From contig QOQW01000023.1 in NCBI GenBank assembly GCA_003327425.1, positions 1 to 64,000 of the forward strand: a stretch of 64,000 nt of DNA, read 5' to 3'. Shown one piece after another: positions 13,987 to 23,563 of the stretch. A program made the position numbers and the translations under genes. The stretch comes from Candidatus Ozemibacter sibiricus. Its GTDB lineage: Bacteria; Muiribacteriota; Ozemobacteria; Ozemobacterales; Ozemobacteraceae. The notes under the pieces were generated by a model. The model was not told the DNA's origin. It saw nothing but the letters and a program-made list of their open reading frames with translations, and did no database searches. Positions within the stretch are counted from its first letter, which is position 1, and the number at the start of each line of letters is the position of its first letter.

Positions 13987-15651
13987 ATGGAACCCATCAC
14001 CCTCACGCTCAAAGACGGTCAGAAAATCAAGATCGAGCCGGGCAAGACCCTGCTCGACGTCATCAAATCAGGCGCCGTCCAGCCCCCCGATCCGAATATC
14101 CCCTTCCTATGCGCCCGCGTCGATAATGACGTGCGCAGCCTCGACTTCGCCCCCCGCATGGATTGCACGGTCGAATTCCTCACCTTCCAAAGCCCCGAAG
14201 GCCGTGAATGCTACCGCCGTTCCTGCACCTTCGTGCTCGCCCGGGCCGTGCTCGAACTCTACCGCAACGCCCGCCTGGCCATCGATCACTCGATCGGCGA
14301 CGGGTTCTACTACGACCTCTATACCGACGTCCCTGTGTCCGAAACGATTCTGGGCTACATCACCGAGAAGATGCGCCAGATCATCGCCAAGGACGAACCC
14401 TTCGAAAAGCGGGTGCTGACCAGGGCCGAGGCGGTGGCGCTGTTCAAGAAGGAGGGCTATCCCGAGAAGGCCCGCCTGCTGCAGAACCTCAACACCGACC
14501 AGGTCGGAGTGGTCAACTCCTGGAAATACTACGATGTCGATCTGGGGCCCATGGTGCCCTCGACCGGCTACCTGAAAGTGTTCGAGCTGAAGCAGTACGC
14601 CTCGGGGTTCGTCCTGCTGTTCCCGAAACAGAGCGATCCCACGGTCGTGTCCGAGATCCGCAACCAGCCGAAGATCTTCTCGGTCTACCGGGAAAGCAAG
14701 GCCTGGGGGAAGATCCTCGAGGTGAACAACGTCGGCCGCCTCAACCAGATCATCCAGAACGGCGACATCAGCGATTTCATCAAGACCGCCGAAGCGTTCC
14801 ACGAGAAGAAGATCGCCGCCATCGCCGACGAAATCACCCACCGCAAGGACTGCCGCATCGTGCTGATCGCCGGGCCGTCGAGTTCGGGCAAGACCACGTT
14901 CAGCAAGCGCCTGTGCATCCAGTTGCGGGTCAACGGCCGGCGGCCCGTGGCCCTCTCGCTCGACAACTATTTCCTCAACCGCGAGCAGACCCCACGTGAC
15001 GAAGAAGGGCATTACGACTTCGAAGACATCCATGCCCTCGACCTGAAACTGTTCAATCAGCACCTGTCCGAACTGCTCGTCGGGAAAGAGGTCGACATTC
15101 CGCGCTTCGATTTCGCCACGGGGTCTCGCCGCAAGGAAACCGACCGCTTGCGCATCAACGAAGACCAGATCATCATCATCGAGGGCATCCATGGCTTGAA
15201 CGACGAGCTGACCGCCTCGGTGCCGGCGTCGGCCAAATTCAAGATCTACATCTCGGCCCTCACCCAACTGGTCATCGACGATTACAACCGCATTCCGACC
15301 ACCGATACCCGCTTGATCCGCCGCACCGTGCGCGACAAGAAGTTCCGCAGCTACTCGGCCCAGGAGACGATCGACCGCTGGCCCTCGGTCCGACGCGGCG
15401 AGGAACGCAACATCTTCCCGTTCCAGGAGTGCGCCGACGCCGTCTTCAACTCGGCCGTGCCGTACGAATGGGCCGTGCTGAAGACGTTCGTCGAGCCGCT
15501 GCTGCTCGACATCCAGCCCGACAAGCGCGCCTACAGCGAGGCGCGGCGCCTGCTCCGCCTGCTCAGCCTGTTCAAGCCCCTCGATCCGCGCGAGGTGCCG
15601 CCGACCTCCATCCTGCGCGAATTCATCGGCGGCAGCTCGTTCCACTACTGA
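13987..15651 (+). CDS. TGS-domain nucleoside (uridine-type) kinase
   Basis: 554 residues. The N-terminus is a TGS-like ubiquitin fold (LTLKDGQKIKIEPGKTLLDVI). A domain related to the second additional domain of threonyl-tRNA synthetase follows (HSIGDGFYYDL, residues about 95-260). The C-terminal half is a phosphoribulokinase/uridine kinase P-loop NTPase: GPSSSGKTTFSKR near residues 295-307, then LSLDNYFLNR and IIIIEGIHGLN. Predicted reaction: NTP-dependent phosphorylation of a nucleoside, in the cytoplasm. The three-part architecture is a known family of nucleoside kinases related to tRNA synthetases. The ribosome site GAAGAGGAAA precedes the ATG. Confidence 0.88.
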   Translation: MEPITLTLKDGQKIKIEPGKTLLDVIKSGAVQPPDPNIPFLCARVDNDVRSLDFAPRMDCTVEFLTFQSPEGRECYRRSCTFVLARAVLELYRNARLAIDHSIGDGFYYDLYTDVPVSETILGYITEKMRQIIAKDEPFEKRVLTRAEAVALFKKEGYPEKARLLQNLNTDQVGVVNSWKYYDVDLGPMVPSTGYLKVFELKQYASGFVLLFPKQSDPTVVSEIRNQPKIFSVYRESKAWGKILEVNNVGRLNQIIQNGDISDFIKTAEAFHEKKIAAIADEITHRKDCRIVLIAGPSSSGKTTFSKRLCIQLRVNGRRPVALSLDNYFLNREQTPRDEEGHYDFEDIHALDLKLFNQHLSELLVGKEVDIPRFDFATGSRRKETDRLRINEDQIIIIEGIHGLNDELTASVPASAKFKIYISALTQLVIDDYNRIPTTDTRLIRRTVRDKKFRSYSAQETIDRWPSVRRGEERNIFPFQECADAVFNSAVPYEWAVLKTFVEPLLLDIQPDKRAYSEARRLLRLLSLFKPLDPREVPPTSILREFIGGSSFHY

Positions 15652-16030: not shown

Positions 16031-16958
16031 CGGCAGCCGGCGGCCGCCGCCGGCTGGCCGGCGGGCGCGCGCCCTGCGCGAACGGCTCGAGGCGTTGTTG
16101 CGCCAGCATCCGCCCGTCGAGCGGGTGGCAAGCGATCCGGTCGCCTTTCCGCGCGCCGCCCTGGCGGCCGGCGCCCCTCGCCCGGCCGTCGAGGCGGTGG
16201 CGCTGCTGAGCGCCATGCTGGCCTACGGGGCGGTGCCGCTGTTCATGCGGGTGATTCGCGGCCTCCTCGACGAAGCGGCCGCCGCCGCACCCAGGGAGGC
16301 GGCCGGGACGGCCTTCCTGCGTGCGATCAGCCAGCCGGGCGGGCCGCGCTTTTCCCTGGGCTATCGCTTGAGCACCGCCGCCGAGATCTCGCGCTTCGCC
16401 GGCGCCATCGGCACGGTCATTTCACGCCATGGCGGGTTGTGGGAAGCGTTCGCCCCCGGCTGGCGCCGGGCAGGCACCGTGCGGGCCGGGCTGATCACGC
16501 TGCACGAGGCCCTCTGGCAGGCGCTCGGTACCCGGCCGGCCGCGGCGCCCGGCGGCCTGCGCCACCTGCTGCCCGACCCCGCCGGCGGCGGCTGTTGCAA
16601 GCGCTGGCTGATGTTCCTGCGCTGGATGGTGCGCCCCGACGACGGCGTTGATCTCGGCCTGTGGCCCGAGGTGCCGCCGGCGGCGCTGCTGATCCCCCTC
16701 GATCGGCACCTCAGCCGCCTGGCCCGCGCCCTCGACCTCACGCGCCGCGCCACCGACGACTGGAAAACGGCCGAAGAGGTCACCGCCGCCCTGCGACAGC
16801 TCGATCCGCTCGACCCGGTGCGCTATGATTTCGCCCTCTGCCACCTCGCCATCGCCGGCGACTGCACCCACGGCCGCCATCCCGAGCGCTGCGCGCCCTG
16901 CCCCTTGGCCGACGTCTGCCAGCCCGCTCCCCCCCGGACCAGGCAGGGCAAACCATGA
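16014..16958 (+). CDS. TIGR02757/DUF2400 family protein
   Basis: About 314 residues. The helical protein resembles helix-hairpin-helix DNA glycosylase-type proteins of the TIGR02757 family: ALLSAMLAYG, KRWLMFLRWMVRPDDG and LIPLDRHLSRLARAL are family hallmarks. The C-terminal cysteines (CTHGRHPERCAPCPLADVC) look like the 4Fe-4S loop of endonuclease III. The biochemical role of the family is not established; nucleic-acid repair is a reasonable guess. The start is uncertain: GTG 16014 overlaps the previous gene by 17 bases and lacks a clear ribosome site. Confidence 0.78.
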   Translation: MSERVDGSRRPPPAGRRARALRERLEALLRQHPPVERVASDPVAFPRAALAAGAPRPAVEAVALLSAMLAYGAVPLFMRVIRGLLDEAAAAAPREAAGTAFLRAISQPGGPRFSLGYRLSTAAEISRFAGAIGTVISRHGGLWEAFAPGWRRAGTVRAGLITLHEALWQALGTRPAAAPGGLRHLLPDPAGGGCCKRWLMFLRWMVRPDDGVDLGLWPEVPPAALLIPLDRHLSRLARALDLTRRATDDWKTAEEVTAALRQLDPLDPVRYDFALCHLAIAGDCTHGRHPERCAPCPLADVCQPAPPRTRQGKP

Positions 16959-16962
16959 CCAA

Positions 16963-16984
16963 GACGCCCGAACAGCAGGGCGTC
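16963..16984 (+). terminator. weak hairpin after the TIGR02757 gene
   Basis: GACGCCC pairs with GGGCGTC around an 8-base loop, 5 bases after the stop codon, followed by GTTTCG. The T-run is short, so termination would be weak. The rest of the gap up to 17220 holds GC-rich sequence with no feature that I can name. Confidence 0.4.
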
Positions 16985-17220
16985 GTTTCGCCTCCCCTCA
17001 GTCGGCAGGGTGCTGTTCGCCCGCCTGCGATGGCCAGAACAGCCGGCTTGCCGGGTGATGACGCCAGGGCTTGCCCTTGTCAGGACACGCCGGCTCCCCC
17101 TCTCGTTGATGGGAAATGAGGGGATAAAGCCCCCCGACCACGCGGAGGGTGACCGTCGCGCCGCGCCGACGTCCCCCGCCGCGGGCATTCTGCGGCCGAG
17201 CGGAGAGACGATTCCCTGGT

Positions 17221-17249
17221 TTGCCAGAAGCGAAGCCATGGAGTATAAA
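17221..17249 (+). promoter_or_regulatory. promoter giving a leaderless mRNA
   Basis: TTGCCA at 17221-17226, 17 bases, TATAAA at 17244-17249. The expected transcript start (7-8 bases on) coincides with the ATG at 17257, and no ribosome site is near, so the radical SAM mRNA is probably leaderless. Confidence 0.6.
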
Positions 17250-17256
17250 GATTGGC

Positions 17257-18786
17257 ATGAAGATCCTCCTCATCGACCCGCCGTTCAAGAGTTTCGCGGG
17301 GTTTTTCAGCTTCTATTTCCCGCTCGGACTGGGCTACCTGGCCGGCAGTTGCCGGAAAGCCGGCTTCGAGGCCAGGATCCTCGACATGGATGTCGCCGAG
17401 GGCAAGACCGGCGACCTCAATTTCACCAACGAATACCTGCGATTCAAGTCGTACGTCGAGGCGCTGAACAACCCGCGCCACCCCACCTGGGAAACGCTGC
17501 GCACCCTGGTGCTCGATCAAAAGCCTGATGTCATCGGCATCACGGCGATGACCACCAAGTTCGGCTCGGTCATCCAGACGGCCCGGTTCTGCAAGCAGGT
17601 GCTGCCCCACGTGCCGATCGTGGTCGGCGGCGCCCATGCCTCGACCATGCCCGACCTCACCCTCGAAGTGCCCGAGATCGACTACGTCGTACGCGGCGAG
17701 GCCGACGAGACCCTGCCGCGCCTGCTCGAGGCCCTGCGCGACCGCCGCAGCGTCGAAGACATCAAAGGAGTCAGTTGGCGCCGGGACGGCCGGGTCGTCC
17801 ACAACCCCGAAGCCCCATTCGTGCAGGATCTCGACACCATTCCCTTCCCCGATCGCTCGGCGCTCCTCCATCCCCAGGCCTATTCCTCCGAAGACATGGG
17901 CGTCATGCTGACCTCGCGCGGGTGCCCCTTCGGCTGCAGTTACTGCTTCCACATGTGGAACCGCCGGGTGCGCTTCCGCTCCATCCCCAACATCATCGCC
18001 GAGATCCGCGAGGTGCGCCGCCAGTTCGGCACGGCGCAATTCTCGCTGAAAGACGACTCGTTCACCGTCAGCAAATCGCACGTGCTGGCCTTCTGCGACG
18101 CGCTGCAGCGCGAACCGTACCGCATCGGCTGGAGCTGTACCACCCGCGTCGACATCCTCGACGAAGAGCTGCTCGTCGCCATGAAGAAGGCAGGCTGCAA
18201 CTCGATCGCGCTCGGCATCGAAACCGGTTCTGAACGCATTCTGAAAGAGACCGACAAGGGCATCACCTTCGACCAGGTACGGCGCGCCGCCCGCCTGTTG
18301 AACAAGCATCGCATGTTCTGGAGCGGCTATTTCATGATCGGCCTGCCGACCGAGACCGAAGAAGACATCGAACAGACGCTGGCCTTCCTGAAGCGGGTCA
18401 ATCCGTACTATGCCGGCATCGGCGTCTACAACCCCTTCCCGCGCACCAAACTGTTCGACCAGGCCGTTGAATTGGGGCTGCTCGACCCCCACCCCCCGCT
18501 CGAGCATTTCTTGCAGACCCACCCCAAAGATCTGTTCTTCAAAGATCCGCGACGCCGGGTCCTGGCCATTCCTCATGAACGTTTCGAAGAGATCCGGGCC
18601 CGGGCGGTGCAGACCTTCCATGCCCATAACACCCGCCTCTTCAACCTGCTGCGCCGCGGCCTGGCCCGCCACCGCACCTACCTGCACGATCCCTCCCTGC
18701 TCTGGCGGGACCTCGAGAAAGGCCTGGAATTTTTGGGCTTGCGCGGCGGGCGCGACGCCCGACCAGCCGACGACGGTCACGCCTGA
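17257..18786 (+). CDS. B12-binding domain radical SAM protein
   Basis: 509 residues. The N-terminal 130 residues form a cobalamin-binding-like Rossmann domain (KILLIDPPFK, then GITAMTTKFG and VVGGAHAS). The radical SAM barrel follows, with CPFGCSYC (CxxxCxxC) binding the 4Fe-4S cluster, then LKDDSF and LGIETGSE strands. B12-binding radical SAM enzymes methylate or rearrange unactivated carbons of lipids, antibiotics or pigments; the substrate here is unknown. The protein is cytoplasmic with a basic C-terminal tail. It is first in an operon with a PaaK-like ligase (27-base gap), a PHP protein and a HisC-like aminotransferase, which suggests a small-molecule pathway. Confidence 0.9.
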   Translation: MKILLIDPPFKSFAGFFSFYFPLGLGYLAGSCRKAGFEARILDMDVAEGKTGDLNFTNEYLRFKSYVEALNNPRHPTWETLRTLVLDQKPDVIGITAMTTKFGSVIQTARFCKQVLPHVPIVVGGAHASTMPDLTLEVPEIDYVVRGEADETLPRLLEALRDRRSVEDIKGVSWRRDGRVVHNPEAPFVQDLDTIPFPDRSALLHPQAYSSEDMGVMLTSRGCPFGCSYCFHMWNRRVRFRSIPNIIAEIREVRRQFGTAQFSLKDDSFTVSKSHVLAFCDALQREPYRIGWSCTTRVDILDEELLVAMKKAGCNSIALGIETGSERILKETDKGITFDQVRRAARLLNKHRMFWSGYFMIGLPTETEEDIEQTLAFLKRVNPYYAGIGVYNPFPRTKLFDQAVELGLLDPHPPLEHFLQTHPKDLFFKDPRRRVLAIPHERFEEIRARAVQTFHAHNTRLFNLLRRGLARHRTYLHDPSLLWRDLEKGLEFLGLRGGRDARPADDGHA

Positions 18787-18813
18787 CCGACGCGGCCCCC
18801 CGTCCGAACCGAC

Positions 18814-20133
18814 ATGCGCGAACCTGGCCGACTCGAAGATCTCTGGCTCACCGCCCGTGGCATCTGGCATCACTATGCCTTCCTGCGCCATTCGCAATGG
18901 TGGTCGACCGATCGGCTGCGCGCCTACCAGGCCGAGCTGGTGGGCCAGTTGCTGATCCGCGCCTATGAACGCACCGACTACTATCGCGAGGCGTTCTGGA
19001 AAGCCGATTTCGACCCCTATAAAGATTTCCGCAGCCTGGAAGACCTGTCGCGGGTGCCCCTGCTCGACAAAGAGACGGCCCGCCGGGCTCCCGCCCGCCT
19101 CGCCGATCCAAACGCCGTTGACCAGGCCCTCGAACTGCGCACCAGCGGCACCACCGGGCAGGTGTTTCGCGAGTACGTGTCGAAAGAGCACTGGGTGGTC
19201 GAACAAGGCGTCGTCTGGCGCCACTGGAGCTGGACCGGCTACCGCTTCCGCGATCCGGTGGCCACCGTGCGGTCCTACGTGCCGAAAGAGGGCGAACCTC
19301 TATGGAAGCTCGACCGCGTGCGCAACTTCATGTTCTTCTCGGCCTACCACCTGAACCCCGAAGGAGCGGAGGCCTACCTGCGCCAGATGCAGCAGTTCAA
19401 GCCGGTCATCTTGCGAGGCTATCCCGCTTCGCTCTATGTGCTGGCCCGCATGGCCGAGCGGCTGCAGCTCGAAACGCCCCCGCTCAAGGCCATCCTGACC
19501 GGCTCGGAGATGCTGCTGCCGGAATACCGCGAGGTCATCGAGCGAGTGTTCCGCGCCCGCGTCTTCGACTGGTACGGCCAGGCCGAATGCACCTGCACTC
19601 TCAACGAGTGCGAGGCGCATGAGGGCATGCACATCAACATGGAATACGGGGTCTGCGAGCTGCTCCCCGACCCGCGCCTGCCGCCCAACGAGCGACGGAT
19701 CGTCGCCACCTGCCTGCACAACCGGGCCATGCCCCTGATCCGCTACGATACCGGCGACATCGCCATTCTGGCCGAACGAACCACGTGCTCGTGCGGGCGG
19801 GGCCTGCCGCTGGTGAAAGGCATTCGCGGCCGGTCCGACGATTTCCTCTATGCCCCCGACGGCCGTATCATTCCCAGCGTCAACCTCTACACCGTCATGT
19901 ACAAGATCGACGAGATCATCGCCTTCCAGCTCATCCAGGACCGCCTCGACCATCTCGAAGTGCGCCTCGAGGCCAAGCACTTCCCCGCCGCGGTCGAAGA
20001 GCGTTTGCGCGCCGACCTGCGCGAGCGCTTCGGGGGCGGCGTGACGATCGACCTTCGCGTCAACGAACCGTTCATCCAAACCGCCGACGGGAAGAAACGC
20101 CCCGTCATCTCCCAGGTCAAACTCGCATGGTGA
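18814..20133 (+). CDS. PaaK/CapK-like adenylate-forming enzyme
   Basis: 439 residues, the length of phenylacetate-CoA ligase relatives. It has the adenylate-forming core: the phosphate loop LRTSGTTGQVF, the aromatic motif DWYGQAECTCT, RYDTGDIAIL, and a C-terminal swinging domain from about residue 330 (IRGRSDDFLY). CSCGRG may be a structural zinc site. It would activate a carboxylate as an acyl-AMP and pass it to CoA or another acceptor. Homologues occur in capsule (CapK) and secondary-metabolite clusters. Its 3' end overlaps the PHP gene by 7 bases. Confidence 0.87.
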   Translation: MREPGRLEDLWLTARGIWHHYAFLRHSQWWSTDRLRAYQAELVGQLLIRAYERTDYYREAFWKADFDPYKDFRSLEDLSRVPLLDKETARRAPARLADPNAVDQALELRTSGTTGQVFREYVSKEHWVVEQGVVWRHWSWTGYRFRDPVATVRSYVPKEGEPLWKLDRVRNFMFFSAYHLNPEGAEAYLRQMQQFKPVILRGYPASLYVLARMAERLQLETPPLKAILTGSEMLLPEYREVIERVFRARVFDWYGQAECTCTLNECEAHEGMHINMEYGVCELLPDPRLPPNERRIVATCLHNRAMPLIRYDTGDIAILAERTTCSCGRGLPLVKGIRGRSDDFLYAPDGRIIPSVNLYTVMYKIDEIIAFQLIQDRLDHLEVRLEAKHFPAAVEERLRADLRERFGGGVTIDLRVNEPFIQTADGKKRPVISQVKLAW

Positions 20134-21053
20134 ACCATCGTTCTGCCGCCACCGAGCCGACCGACCCGGCCTCTCCGAGCGGCTCGTCGCCAAGCCTGCC
20201 GGGCGATCAATATTCCTGGCGGGCCGAGCTGCATCTGCATACGACCGCCTCGCTCGACGGGTTCTCCACCCTCGACGACGTGCTGGCGGAATGTCGCCGC
20301 AAACAGATCGGCCTGGTGGCGATCACCGATCACGACGCCATGGGCCTCTCATCGGAAGCCGCGGCCCGCTTCGCCGCAGCCGGCATCGCGGCCGTGCCAG
20401 GCTGCGAGATGACCACCGACCGGGGCGCCCATCTGCTCGGCCTGTTCGTCGACCGGCCCCTGACCGGCGCTTCCGCCAAGGCCATCGCCGACCATGTGCA
20501 ATGCCAAGGCGGGCTGCTGGGCATTCCCCATCCCTTCAAACCAGAAACGGGTCTGCTGGCGGTCTCGTCGCTCGACGAACCTGACACGGCCGAGGTGGTC
20601 GGGCGGGCCGATTTCATCGAGCGCCTCAACGGCGACTGGTTCGATCCCGCCTTCGATGCCGCCATCGAGCAGATCGCCAGCCGATTCGCGCTGCCTCTAG
20701 TGGCCGGTTCTGACGCCCACAAGCCCTGGGAGATCGGCCGGTTGATCACCGCCCTGCCCCCCCTGTCAGCGCCCCCCACCGCCGCCAGCCTCCGGGCCAC
20801 CTTGCGCCAGACCGCCCCCGCCTTGCTACGCCTGGAGGGATTTGTGCAACGGCCGCCCCAGGCCCGTTCCCGCCTGCGCCGCCTGTTCTCCCGCCTGCGG
20901 TGGTGGCCGGCGTATCGAGCCTTCATCAAGGCCGTCCCCTACGCCGTGAAACGGGCCATCCGTCTCCACCTCTACCGACGCCGCTACCGGGCCTGGCAGG
21001 CCGACCCCGGCCCCGCCACCTACCGCCCTGCCCTCGAGAGAACTGCCGCATGA
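20127..21053 (+). CDS. PHP-domain metal-dependent phosphoesterase
   Basis: 308 residues. PHP metal ligands appear in order: ELHLHTTASLDG, ITDHDAMG, GCEMTTDRG, GIPHPF and AGSDAHKPWEIG. Stand-alone PHP proteins hydrolyse phosphate esters, such as histidinol phosphate or nucleotide phosphates. A long Arg-rich C-terminal tail (about residues 230-308) goes beyond the usual domain and may bind membranes or nucleic acid. The neighbouring HisC-like aminotransferase recalls the histidinol-phosphate phosphatase/HisC pair, but no other his gene is present. ATG 20127 is chosen from its overlap with the PaaK-like gene's stop. Confidence 0.83.
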   Translation: MVNHRSAATEPTDPASPSGSSPSLPGDQYSWRAELHLHTTASLDGFSTLDDVLAECRRKQIGLVAITDHDAMGLSSEAAARFAAAGIAAVPGCEMTTDRGAHLLGLFVDRPLTGASAKAIADHVQCQGGLLGIPHPFKPETGLLAVSSLDEPDTAEVVGRADFIERLNGDWFDPAFDAAIEQIASRFALPLVAGSDAHKPWEIGRLITALPPLSAPPTAASLRATLRQTAPALLRLEGFVQRPPQARSRLRRLFSRLRWWPAYRAFIKAVPYAVKRAIRLHLYRRRYRAWQADPGPATYRPALERTAA

Positions 21054-22171
21054 GTCTGAAGCCGGTCCCCCACATCGAAGCGCTCGAGGAATACGCCGTC
21101 ACCAGCCAGGACGTCTGGCGCATCGAAGATCCGCACCACGCCAGCCGGGTACTCAAACTCGACTGGAACGAATCCCCCGCCGTGCTCGACATCGTTCGGC
21201 AGCGGCTCGCCGAGTTCCTGGCCCACCCGGGCAGCATCAACTGGTATCCCGATGTGGCGGCCCTCGAACTGTCGAAGGCGATCGCCGATCACCTCGGACT
21301 CTCCCACCTGCAAGTGCTCCCCTTCGGAGGCTCCGATGTGGCGCTCGAGACCGTGGCCCGCACCTACCTGGGGCCCGGCGATCCAGTGGTCCTCGTCCAT
21401 CCGGGCTACGACAATTTCCGTCTCTACGCTGAAGCGTGCGGGGCCCGCATCCATCGGGTCGTGCCCGGGCCCGACCCGCTCGCCTTCTCGATGAGCGCCT
21501 TCATCGACGCCATCCGTGCCCTCGGGCCGGCCAGATTGATCTACCTGATCCAGCCCAACAACCCCGTCGGGTATCTGGCCAGTCGAGCCGAATTGATCGC
21601 TCTGCTGCAGGCCTTCCCCGAGACGGCGATCATCGTCGACGAAGCCTACATCGAATTCGCCGAGGGGGAACCCACCGCCGCGCCTCTCATCACCCAGTTC
21701 GACCATCTGTTCGTCGCCCGCTCATTCTCGAAAGCCTTCGGCCTGGCCGGCCTGCGCCTCGGCTACGTGGTATCGCACCATCGCAATCTGGCCCACCTGC
21801 GCAAACTGCGCAACGGCAAGAATCTGACGATGTTCGCCCAGATCGCCGGCACCACCCTGCTGCAGAACATCGACCTGGTCCGACAGCACGTCGCGCGAGT
21901 CAAAGCGGGGCGACGGTGGTTCACCGACGCCTATCGGGCGCGAGGCGGCACCATCCTCGACAGCCAGGGCAACTTCGCGCTGGTGCGCGTCGCCGACCCG
22001 CAGGAGGTCATCTTCCGCTTGAAGATGGAAGGCATCTATGTGCGCGACCGCAGTTCGATGCGCGGTCTCGAAGGCATGCTCCGCCTGACCTTCGGCCCGC
22101 CCGAGATCATGGCCCGCGTGCTGGCCGCCTTCGAGGCGATGCCGGACGGCCTCTGGCAGACCGCTCGTTGA
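21050..22171 (+). CDS. HisC-like class I/II PLP aminotransferase
   Basis: 373 residues, fold-type I. Visible are KLDWNESP near the N-terminus, the Asn/Pro motif LIQPNNPVGY, IIVDEAYIEF with the PLP-ring Asp, the Schiff-base lysine in ARSFSKAFGLAGLRLGY, and the C-terminal phosphate or substrate Arg in MLRLTFG. The sequence falls in the HisC/CobD group. The CobO gene a short way downstream makes CobD (threonine-phosphate decarboxylase) a possible alternative, but the operon context with radical SAM, ligase and PHP genes argues for a pathway-specific enzyme. ATGA overlap with the PHP gene. Confidence 0.85.
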   Translation: MSLKPVPHIEALEEYAVTSQDVWRIEDPHHASRVLKLDWNESPAVLDIVRQRLAEFLAHPGSINWYPDVAALELSKAIADHLGLSHLQVLPFGGSDVALETVARTYLGPGDPVVLVHPGYDNFRLYAEACGARIHRVVPGPDPLAFSMSAFIDAIRALGPARLIYLIQPNNPVGYLASRAELIALLQAFPETAIIVDEAYIEFAEGEPTAAPLITQFDHLFVARSFSKAFGLAGLRLGYVVSHHRNLAHLRKLRNGKNLTMFAQIAGTTLLQNIDLVRQHVARVKAGRRWFTDAYRARGGTILDSQGNFALVRVADPQEVIFRLKMEGIYVRDRSSMRGLEGMLRLTFGPPEIMARVLAAFEAMPDGLWQTAR

Positions 22172-22175
22172 CCGC

Positions 22176-22204
22176 TTGTCGCTGGTCGGCAGCGGGTGTA
22201 TCAT
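22176..22204 (+). promoter_or_regulatory. promoter of the hexapeptide-repeat gene
   Basis: TTGTCG at 22176-22181, 17 bases, TATCAT at 22199-22204. The start near 22211 gives a 24-base leader with GGGAGG. The last gene can thus be made separately from the four before it. Confidence 0.55.
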
Positions 22205-22234
22205 GGGCCCAACTTCGACGCCGGGAGGCATTCC

Positions 22235-22939
22235 ATGTTCGAACGCACCGATTTCTTCAAGAATCTCGATGGCTTCCCCTTCCCCGAGCTGTTCGACAAG
22301 TCCCTCAAAGGGTTCGATGACCTCACCTTCATCTGGGACGTCATCAAACGGATCCAGGCGGGATTCATCGCCCAGCGCGTCAAACCGCAGATTCTCGGCG
22401 TGGTCGAGGAGGGAGCCATCCTGAAGGGCGAAGACATCTTCATCGGCCGCAACAGCCGGGTGCAGGCCGGCGCCATGATCATCGGACCGACCATTCTCGG
22501 CGCCAACGTCGAAGTCCGCCACGGAGCCTACATCCGTGGCCATGTCATCGCCGGCGACGGCGCCGTCATCGGACATGCCAGCGAGGTCATCCGGTCGGTC
22601 CTGCTCCCCGGGGCCAAAGCGCCGCATTTCAACTATGTCGGCGACTCGATCCTCGGCGCCCGCGTCAACCTCGGGGCAGGCACCAAACTCTCGAATCTGA
22701 AGAACGACGGCAGCGAGGTCAAGGTGCATGCCGCCGGGACCAGCTACAAGACGGGGCTGAAGAAATTCGGCGCCATCCTGGGCGATGGCTGCATGCTCGG
22801 CTGCAACACCGTGACCAACCCGGGCACCTTGATGGGCCCCAACTGCCGGGTCTACCCCAACGCCACCGTCACCGGCTACTACGTGGCCAGCACCATCGTC
22901 AAACTGGTCCAGGAGCTGAAAACCGCCCGAGTGGAGTGA
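22235..22939 (+). CDS. left-handed beta-helix (hexapeptide repeat) transferase-like protein
   Basis: 234 residues. An N-terminal helical region of about 60 residues is followed by hexapeptide turns of a left-handed beta-helix (VEEGAILKGEDIFIGRNSRV, GPTILGANVEVRHGAYI, then GAVIGHASEV). The pattern matches the acetyltransferase half of GlmU and related sugar-nucleotide transferases, including the loop KAPHFNYVGDSILGARVNLG. There is no nucleotidyltransferase domain. It probably acylates an amino-sugar nucleotide or similar substrate. GGGAGG lies 7 bases before ATG 22235. Confidence 0.82.
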   Translation: MFERTDFFKNLDGFPFPELFDKSLKGFDDLTFIWDVIKRIQAGFIAQRVKPQILGVVEEGAILKGEDIFIGRNSRVQAGAMIIGPTILGANVEVRHGAYIRGHVIAGDGAVIGHASEVIRSVLLPGAKAPHFNYVGDSILGARVNLGAGTKLSNLKNDGSEVKVHAAGTSYKTGLKKFGAILGDGCMLGCNTVTNPGTLMGPNCRVYPNATVTGYYVASTIVKLVQELKTARVE

Positions 22940-23038: not shown

Positions 23039-23563
23039 TCAGTATTCGATGCCGGGGCGGGCGGTGACGCCGCGATCGAAGTAGTGCCGCACTTTGGTGA
23101 CCCGCGAGACGAGGTCGAATCCCGCCACCCACGCTTCGTCACGACAACGCCCGGTACAGACGATCTCGACATGGCTGGAGGCCTTGGCCAGCACGGCCTC
23201 GACCTCTCTCCATTCAAGCAGGCCCCCCGACGCACACGTCAGGATCTCATCAAGCACGAGCAGATCGAACGAACCGCTGGTCAGCAGGTTCTCAGCCTGC
23301 CTGAGCCCGGCCTGCGCTTCGCGCCGATCATCCTCGGTAACGCCGAAGCGGAACCCGCCGCCCGCGGTCATCCGTTCGCACCCGAAGATGTAGAAAGGCA
23401 CGCCCAGCTTCTCCAGGATGACCGTTTCGTGGTGCCGATAGGTCTGACAACCCTTGTCGAAATAGACCGCGGCCCCACGCAGGCCTGCCCCCGCCGCCCG
23501 GATCAGCAACCCCAACGCAGCGGTGGATTTCCCCTTGCCGTCACCGATGTAGGCATGTCGCAT
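23039..23563 (-). CDS. cobO: cob(I)yrinic acid a,c-diamide adenosyltransferase (CobO/BtuR type)
   Basis: 174 residues. The P-loop GDGKGKSTAALGL at the N-terminus, the AVYFDKG strand and LLVLDEIL (Walker B) are diagnostic of the CobA/CobO/BtuR family, which transfers the adenosyl group of ATP to corrinoid cobalt. The product is adenosylcobalamin, and a corrinoid cofactor would be needed by the B12-binding radical SAM protein close by. The length is slightly short but complete. GGAGGAAGAG precedes the start. It lies 68 bases after a minus-strand exported-protein gene and may be co-transcribed with it. Confidence 0.88.
   Translation of the reverse strand: MRHAYIGDGKGKSTAALGLLIRAAGAGLRGAAVYFDKGCQTYRHHETVILEKLGVPFYIFGCERMTAGGGFRFGVTEDDRREAQAGLRQAENLLTSGSFDLLVLDEILTCASGGLLEWREVEAVLAKASSHVEIVCTGRCRDEAWVAGFDLVSRVTKVRHYFDRGVTARPGIEY

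Follow-up and report, generated by a model that had tools for sequence, protein, structure and literature searches.

A four-gene operon with a B12-binding radical SAM enzyme in Candidatus Ozemibacter sibiricus and its possible role in decorating a surface polysaccharide

In Candidatus Ozemibacter sibiricus, four plus-strand genes at positions 17257-22171 of the window (positions 1-64000 of contig C17 in the 5.68 Mb genome G000, which is 97.9% complete) form an operon encoding a B12-binding radical SAM enzyme (rSAM), a PaaK/CapK-like adenylate-forming ligase (PaaK), a PHP-domain phosphoesterase (PHP), and a HisC-like aminotransferase dependent on pyridoxal phosphate (PLP). A hexapeptide-repeat gene (Hex) that follows lies outside the operon. 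The genes are intact, and relatives of rSAM, PaaK, and PHP occur mostly among polysaccharide genes. We favor a glycan role for the operon; the fuller proposal, that its products decorate a surface polysaccharide by the steps set out below, is plausible and falls slightly short of probable.

A four-gene operon inside an older neighborhood

The four genes are as follows:

17257..18786, plus strand: rSAM, B12-binding radical SAM enzyme, 509 aa (Pfam B12-binding 88 bits, Radical_SAM 87 bits; CxxxCxxC at C223/C227/C230)
18814..20133, plus strand: PaaK, PaaK/CapK-like adenylate-forming ligase, 439 aa (weak AMP-binding match; PaaK-type matches in the PDB and in NCBIfam, the latter all under cut-off)
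20127..21053, plus strand: PHP, PHP-domain phosphoesterase, 308 aa from ATG 20127, with GTG 20130 also possible (Pfam PHP and PHP_C)
21050..22171, plus strand: HisC-like fold-type I PLP aminotransferase, 373 aa (Aminotran_1_2; TIGR01141 228.1 bits, under the cut-off of 276.55)

A spacer of 27 bp separates the rSAM stop codon (18786) from the PaaK ATG (18814), the PaaK stop codon (20133) overlaps the PHP start (20127 or 20130), and the PHP stop codon (21053) overlaps the HisC-like ATG (21050). A first-pass annotation of this DNA had described five genes at 17257-22939, encoding these four kinds of protein and a hexapeptide acyltransferase, the first four overlapping or 27 bases apart; our gene calls and profile matches agree on both points, and all five genes are intact and on the plus strand. 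Its single promoter was not confirmed: we found no sigma-70-like site upstream of rSAM, and the sole match (one observed against an expectation of 0.5) precedes Hex, at 22176-22204.

The block is shared by two of the three genus members compared, the window species (G000) and a congener (G002). Between their gene pairs, dN/dS, taken from the dN and dS of each pair, was 0.07 for rSAM, 0.09 for PaaK, 0.18 for PHP, 0.11 for the HisC-like gene, and 0.05 for Hex, with amino acid identities of 93.5%, 89.5%, 78.1%, 89.3%, and 94.4%, respectively. Given ratios of 0.05-0.18, all five genes are constrained by purifying selection. In G002, contig C61 ends in rSAM and contig C56 begins with PaaK, the two ends having no overlap; adjacency of rSAM and PaaK is nevertheless probable there, with a spacer longer than in the window, and PHP starts ~230 bp downstream of PaaK. 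Between the two contig ends there is an 80-base similarity (76%) in inverted orientation, which may be a dispersed repeat at which the assembly broke.

Outside these two species the last three genes are rare. Across 55 other genomes PaaK had one close match (G002, 90%; next 30%), and over 39 genomes of the phylum, G000 included, the best matches were again in G002 for PHP (78%; next 31%, over the best-scoring stretch) and for the HisC-like protein (89%; next 31%). No close plasmid copy of any of the four genes was found, all plasmid matches being <60% identical, and a scan of genome contigs with PaaK, whose patterns detect close relatives only, returned only the congener and one Nitrospirae locus at 28%. 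In the third genus member (G001), no close match to PaaK, PHP, or the HisC-like protein was found. The first-pass annotation had held that its cassette would be refuted if the genes occurred apart in close relatives: in part they do, in G001, and the four-gene arrangement is common to G002.

The flanking genes record the history of the site:

13987..15651, plus strand: uridine-kinase-like protein (UrK), upstream flank marking the insertion site (profile matches; 96% identical in G002)
16125..16958, plus strand: DUF2400/TIGR02757 protein, upstream flank (profile matches)
22235..22939, plus strand: Hex, hexapeptide-repeat (LbH) acyltransferase-like protein, flank outside the unit (57-94% identical family-wide; older neighbor of DUF2400 and CobO)
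23039..23563, minus strand: CobO-type corrinoid adenosyltransferase, downstream flank (Pfam CobA_CobO_BtuR 142 bits)

In two members of the Ozemobacteraceae, G017 and G009, UrK, DUF2400, Hex, and CobO are contiguous with none of the block genes in between; the four-gene block therefore sits inside an older neighborhood, and we rejected Hex, which the first-pass annotation had included in its cassette, as an operon member. Hex is present in 21 of the 24 family genomes sampled at >=57% identity over most of its length, with an extra 68% fragment in G008. It adjoins CobO also in G001 and G018, and does not in G003, G007, G011, and G014; the short G010 contig allows no judgment. In G001, Hex beside CobO is separate from rSAM. 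The match of Hex to Arch_glmU covers the C-terminal part of the profile only and at 165.9 bits stays below the cut-off (292.1) for GlmU-type acetyltransferases, which also have a nucleotidyltransferase domain. In G002, DUF2400 was not found between UrK and rSAM, where 1.85 kb (L106:1669-3520) differs. The uridine-kinase-like domain of UrK is preceded by a stretch matching the ThrRS profile, an unusual fusion.

Because the GC content and third-position GC (GC3) of the block are similar to those of neighboring genes, we rejected a foreign composition. No convincing flanking repeat or mobile-element boundary was found in 16900-22400, which holds only short chance-like repeats.

The radical SAM enzyme and its polysaccharide context

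With a B12-binding domain and a CxxxCxxC radical SAM domain, rSAM has the features of B12-dependent radical SAM enzymes and is predicted to bind cobalamin; the three motif cysteines are invariant in a 20-row alignment. Scores against HpnJ (189.5 bits, cut-off 577.6) and BchE (211.6 bits, cut-off 481.35) place it in neither family. Orthologs at >=58% identity (58-93%) occur in 22 of the 24 family genomes (the G008 copy is a fragment; G015 and G020 are without), and none was found in other genomes of the phylum.

Outside the window, rSAM stands directly beside a polysaccharide gene in 15 of 19 fetched regions, or in 16 of 20 when G022, placed by coordinates, is added and the G008 fragment is left out; the fetched regions without such a gene are those of G002, G007, G014, and G019. 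The neighbors comprise a UDP-N-acetyl-D-mannosamine dehydrogenase (UGD; NF008286, 561 bits, cut-off 459), the amidotransferase AsnB, an ADH/Gfo double-domain oxidoreductase, a heparinase II/III-like protein, and a WcaI-like family 4 glycosyltransferase (GT4). The best NCBIfam match of AsnB is the XrtA/PEP-CTERM amidotransferase, under cut-off. The rSAM gene of the window is orthologous to that of a family operon of the type UGD-rSAM-(AsnB)-ADH/Gfo-heparinase-GT4, whereas in G000 and G002 it lies elsewhere, where its partners are the three other block genes and AsnB is absent.

This change of place is visible within the genus. In G001, AsnB-rSAM-UGD lies between two shared flanks; in G000 and G002, UGD stands alone between the same flanks (at C54), and the ADH/Gfo, heparinase-like, and glycosyltransferase genes of the genus sit together elsewhere (C25). 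AsnB orthologs (>=53%) occur in G001, G009, G016, and G022, and a fragment of 62 residues (69%) lies at the end of a G010 contig. No close ortholog was found in G000 or G002, where the best-scoring homologs are 38-39% identical, and up to 47% over short stretches. One AsnB homolog of the window species (G000:C36:3008-4891) has an internal TGA, reflecting a pseudogene, an error, or recoding. Another, at G000:C7 ~96600-105800, is surrounded by four more B12-radical SAM homologs (29-34%), which suggests a further cluster for a glycan or a natural product.

We compared a 12-genome rSAM tree with a UGD tree by applying the approximately unbiased (AU) test to a grouping of G000, G002, and G001. For rSAM the grouping was rejected (log-likelihood 27 lower, AU p 0.001), a result to be read with the long rSAM branch and with the choice of grouping after inspection of the tree; for UGD it was not (AU p 0.33). 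With that long-branch caveat, we rejected simple descent of the block rSAM from the genus ancestor. It is a diverged or an acquired lineage within the family, and we make no choice between the two because the branch is long. Since the genus grouping fails for rSAM and not for UGD, the four genes may have been acquired together.

AprD4 acts on an aminoglycoside and OxsB on a nucleotide. The predicted model of rSAM (pLDDT 82) matches AprD4 best (Z 29.2, rmsd 3.0, 398 aligned), tied within one Z unit with MgmA (Z 28.6, rmsd 3.1, 375 aligned) and followed by OxsB (Z 27.4, rmsd 2.9, 395 aligned); at 20-24% identity to these three, the likeness in fold gives no function. An excerpt of PMC13142503 describes cobalamin-dependent radical SAM members that do not methylate.

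Relatives of the ligase, phosphoesterase, and aminotransferase

PaaK is not a phenylacetate-CoA ligase by TIGR02155 (83.2 bits, cut-off 646.3). Its plasmid homologs (28-32% identical) lie in polysaccharide loci by their own annotation in 6 of 6 neighborhoods (H1, H3, H5, H6, H7, and H8, six of the eight matches listed from 158 plasmid records with a match; H2 and H4, which equal H1 and H3 in identity and come from close relatives, were left out). One is in a locus like that for Vibrio polysaccharide (VPS), and a Nitrospirae locus (L037) holds two PaaK homologs among Wzx, Wzy, glycosyltransferase, and UGD genes. The setting of these homologs resembles that of CapK-like genes in exopolysaccharide clusters, such as Vibrio cholerae vpsH, annotated as CapK in an excerpt of PMC12505965. 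The window ligase differs from them in lying outside any polysaccharide locus and in traveling with the HisC-like, PHP, and rSAM genes. A further homolog, in G025 (L144:1034-5591), is immediately upstream of nickel-insertion-type genes, which we take to be of the LarE/LarB/LarC type. An ADH/Gfo-heparinase-glycosyltransferase set lies on the same strand ~3.8 kb off, with the nickel genes in between, and we counted this context neither way.

In PHP, the metal-ligand-type residues H36, H38, E94, and H135 are invariant in nine rows. Among the matches listed are models of the CehA/McbA type and for nucleoside bisphosphatases, whereas a model for histidinol phosphatase is absent. Relatives lie in glycan loci in four of five contexts: three of the four plasmid neighborhoods inspected (H29, H30, and H33, in glycan or lipid-glycan settings; H32 was the fourth, and H31, the last of five records, is without annotation) and G014:C126. 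The latter, the nearest relative in the family, is on a glycan contig with an ATP-grasp gene adjoining, its ATP-grasp, flippase, and nonulosonate-type labels being our own tentative reading of the sequences. An ATP-grasp gene also adjoins the Natribaculum relative, in a glycan locus, and two haloarchaeal relatives are beside a UbiA/decaprenyl-phosphate phosphoribosyltransferase.

The HisC-like protein has the PLP lysine, the PLP-site residues, and the two substrate-anion arginines of HisC-type fold-type I enzymes. K228, R236, R332, and R345 are invariant in ten rows, as are Y66, N171, D197, and Y200, and the stretch from Y66 to R345 could be matched to E. coli HisC, in which R322 and R335 are presumably the substrate-anion arginines.

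Proposed function and alternatives

In the explanation that we prefer, rSAM comes from an operon, found across the family, for a polymer of the N-acetyl-mannosaminuronate type, and probably uses radical chemistry to modify one of the sugars in that polymer; the other three proteins probably make a small substituent and attach it. The retained HisC-type residues and the overlapping PHP gene suggest a path from phosphorylated ketone to phosphorylated amine to amine: the HisC-like protein would carry out the transamination and PHP the dephosphorylation, after which the substituent would need an activated partner, and to that end the CapK-like ligase would convert a carboxylate, likeliest that of a uronic acid, to the adenylate for amide formation. 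Every substrate, the order of the reactions, and a functional replacement of AsnB by the trio are as we infer them; the trio does hold the place next to rSAM that the glutamine-dependent AsnB takes in G001.

A possible parallel is the serinol/ethanolamine amidation of the Campylobacter jejuni HS:2 capsule. According to an excerpt of PMC11800397, Cj1437 makes (S)-serinol phosphate, Cj1438C couples it to glucuronate, and Cj1435 removes the phosphate. A PLP aminotransferase acting on a phosphorylated ketone, an ATP-dependent uronate ligase, a phosphatase, and a surface polysaccharide would be common to both systems; in the window, by contrast, the ligase is of the PaaK/CapK adenylate-forming type, the phosphatase is a PHP protein, and a B12-radical SAM enzyme is added. 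By this analogy we propose amino-alcohol amide chemistry only tentatively. Searches of the open-licence PMC literature, for the terms used and among the entries listed, found no polysaccharide locus described as having an amidation system of the radical SAM or CapK kind.

Several observations weigh against a role in polysaccharide decoration. In the window, the genes next to the block include neither a glycosyltransferase nor any other member of a polysaccharide operon, so that the first-pass remark that no polysaccharide cluster surrounds it is true locally, if misleading given where relatives of rSAM and PaaK are found. In G007, G014, and G019 rSAM is not beside polysaccharide genes, and most family genomes with rSAM have no AsnB at the rSAM spot, which AsnB therefore does not obligatorily occupy. 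The Campylobacter ligase and phosphatase would correspond at the level of enzyme class, by analogy. The retained residues would equally be expected if the HisC-type enzyme acted on a different substrate; HisC-like relatives are in non-glycan loci in both cases inspected of 12 matches listed, and H32, among the PHP relatives, likewise has a non-glycan setting.

A glycan could also be decorated with the acid side reversed, the CapK-like ligase activating an amino or hydroxy acid onto an amino sugar and the HisC-like protein making the amino acid or amino sugar. HisC-type enzymes usually retain the phosphate site, which speaks against this version. The polysaccharide contexts of PaaK and rSAM apply to it equally, and excerpts report a glycine substituent on VPS (PMC3901696), whose cluster contains the CapK-annotated vpsH (PMC12505965). 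In that glycine amide, however, a uronic acid is the acid partner, a better fit to uronate activation, and we regard the reversed version as unlikely.

We find it similarly improbable that the operon makes a free small molecule (a natural product) with no connection to the cell surface, rSAM having been taken over from the polysaccharide operon to act on a new substrate. The block does lie away from polysaccharide genes, and rSAM has a long branch that does not group with the G001 copy, as after a change of function; yet glycan loci are the source of the PaaK and PHP relatives, and other polysaccharide genes of the genus are scattered anyway, as at C54 and C25. The first-pass annotation had proposed a small-molecule or amino-sugar pathway; our results support a real and possibly sugar-related operon, and do not support a pathway that stands on its own, apart from polysaccharide genes.

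PHP-type histidinol phosphatases exist, and the HisC-type score (228 bits) and the overlap of the HisC-like and PHP genes would fit a histidine branch. That branch is highly improbable, and we rejected a histidine role: HisD is present in 0 of 24 family genomes versus 13 of 14 controls, which means that the HisC-like protein is not for histidine; HisA/HisF-type matches in G000 reach <=25.8 bits; hisC (TIGR01141), the best NCBIfam match, stays under its cut-off here and in all 24 family genomes; and PHP lacks a histidinol-phosphatase model among its listed matches. The first-pass proviso, that the protein not be the only histidine-biosynthesis aminotransferase of the organism, is borne out. HisC-like proteins of 234-256 bits occur in G005, G006, G009, G012, G016, G017, G021, G022, and G023, where HisD is also missing.

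Under our preferred explanation of polysaccharide decoration, a B12-radical SAM family without an assigned role, conserved across an uncultured family, is now tied to surface-polysaccharide biosynthesis, and a short enzyme set for a glycan substituent is proposed. Two species of one genus hold rSAM in a new operon, and a third keeps the old one. It is conceivable, if rather unlikely, that a swap-in module, in which the HisC-like protein and PHP supply a CapK-like ligase with an amino alcohol, now does beside rSAM what a glutamine-dependent amidotransferase formerly did to a polymer of uronic acid; if so, the cells would carry a surface polymer with a radical-modified sugar and a new amide substituent.

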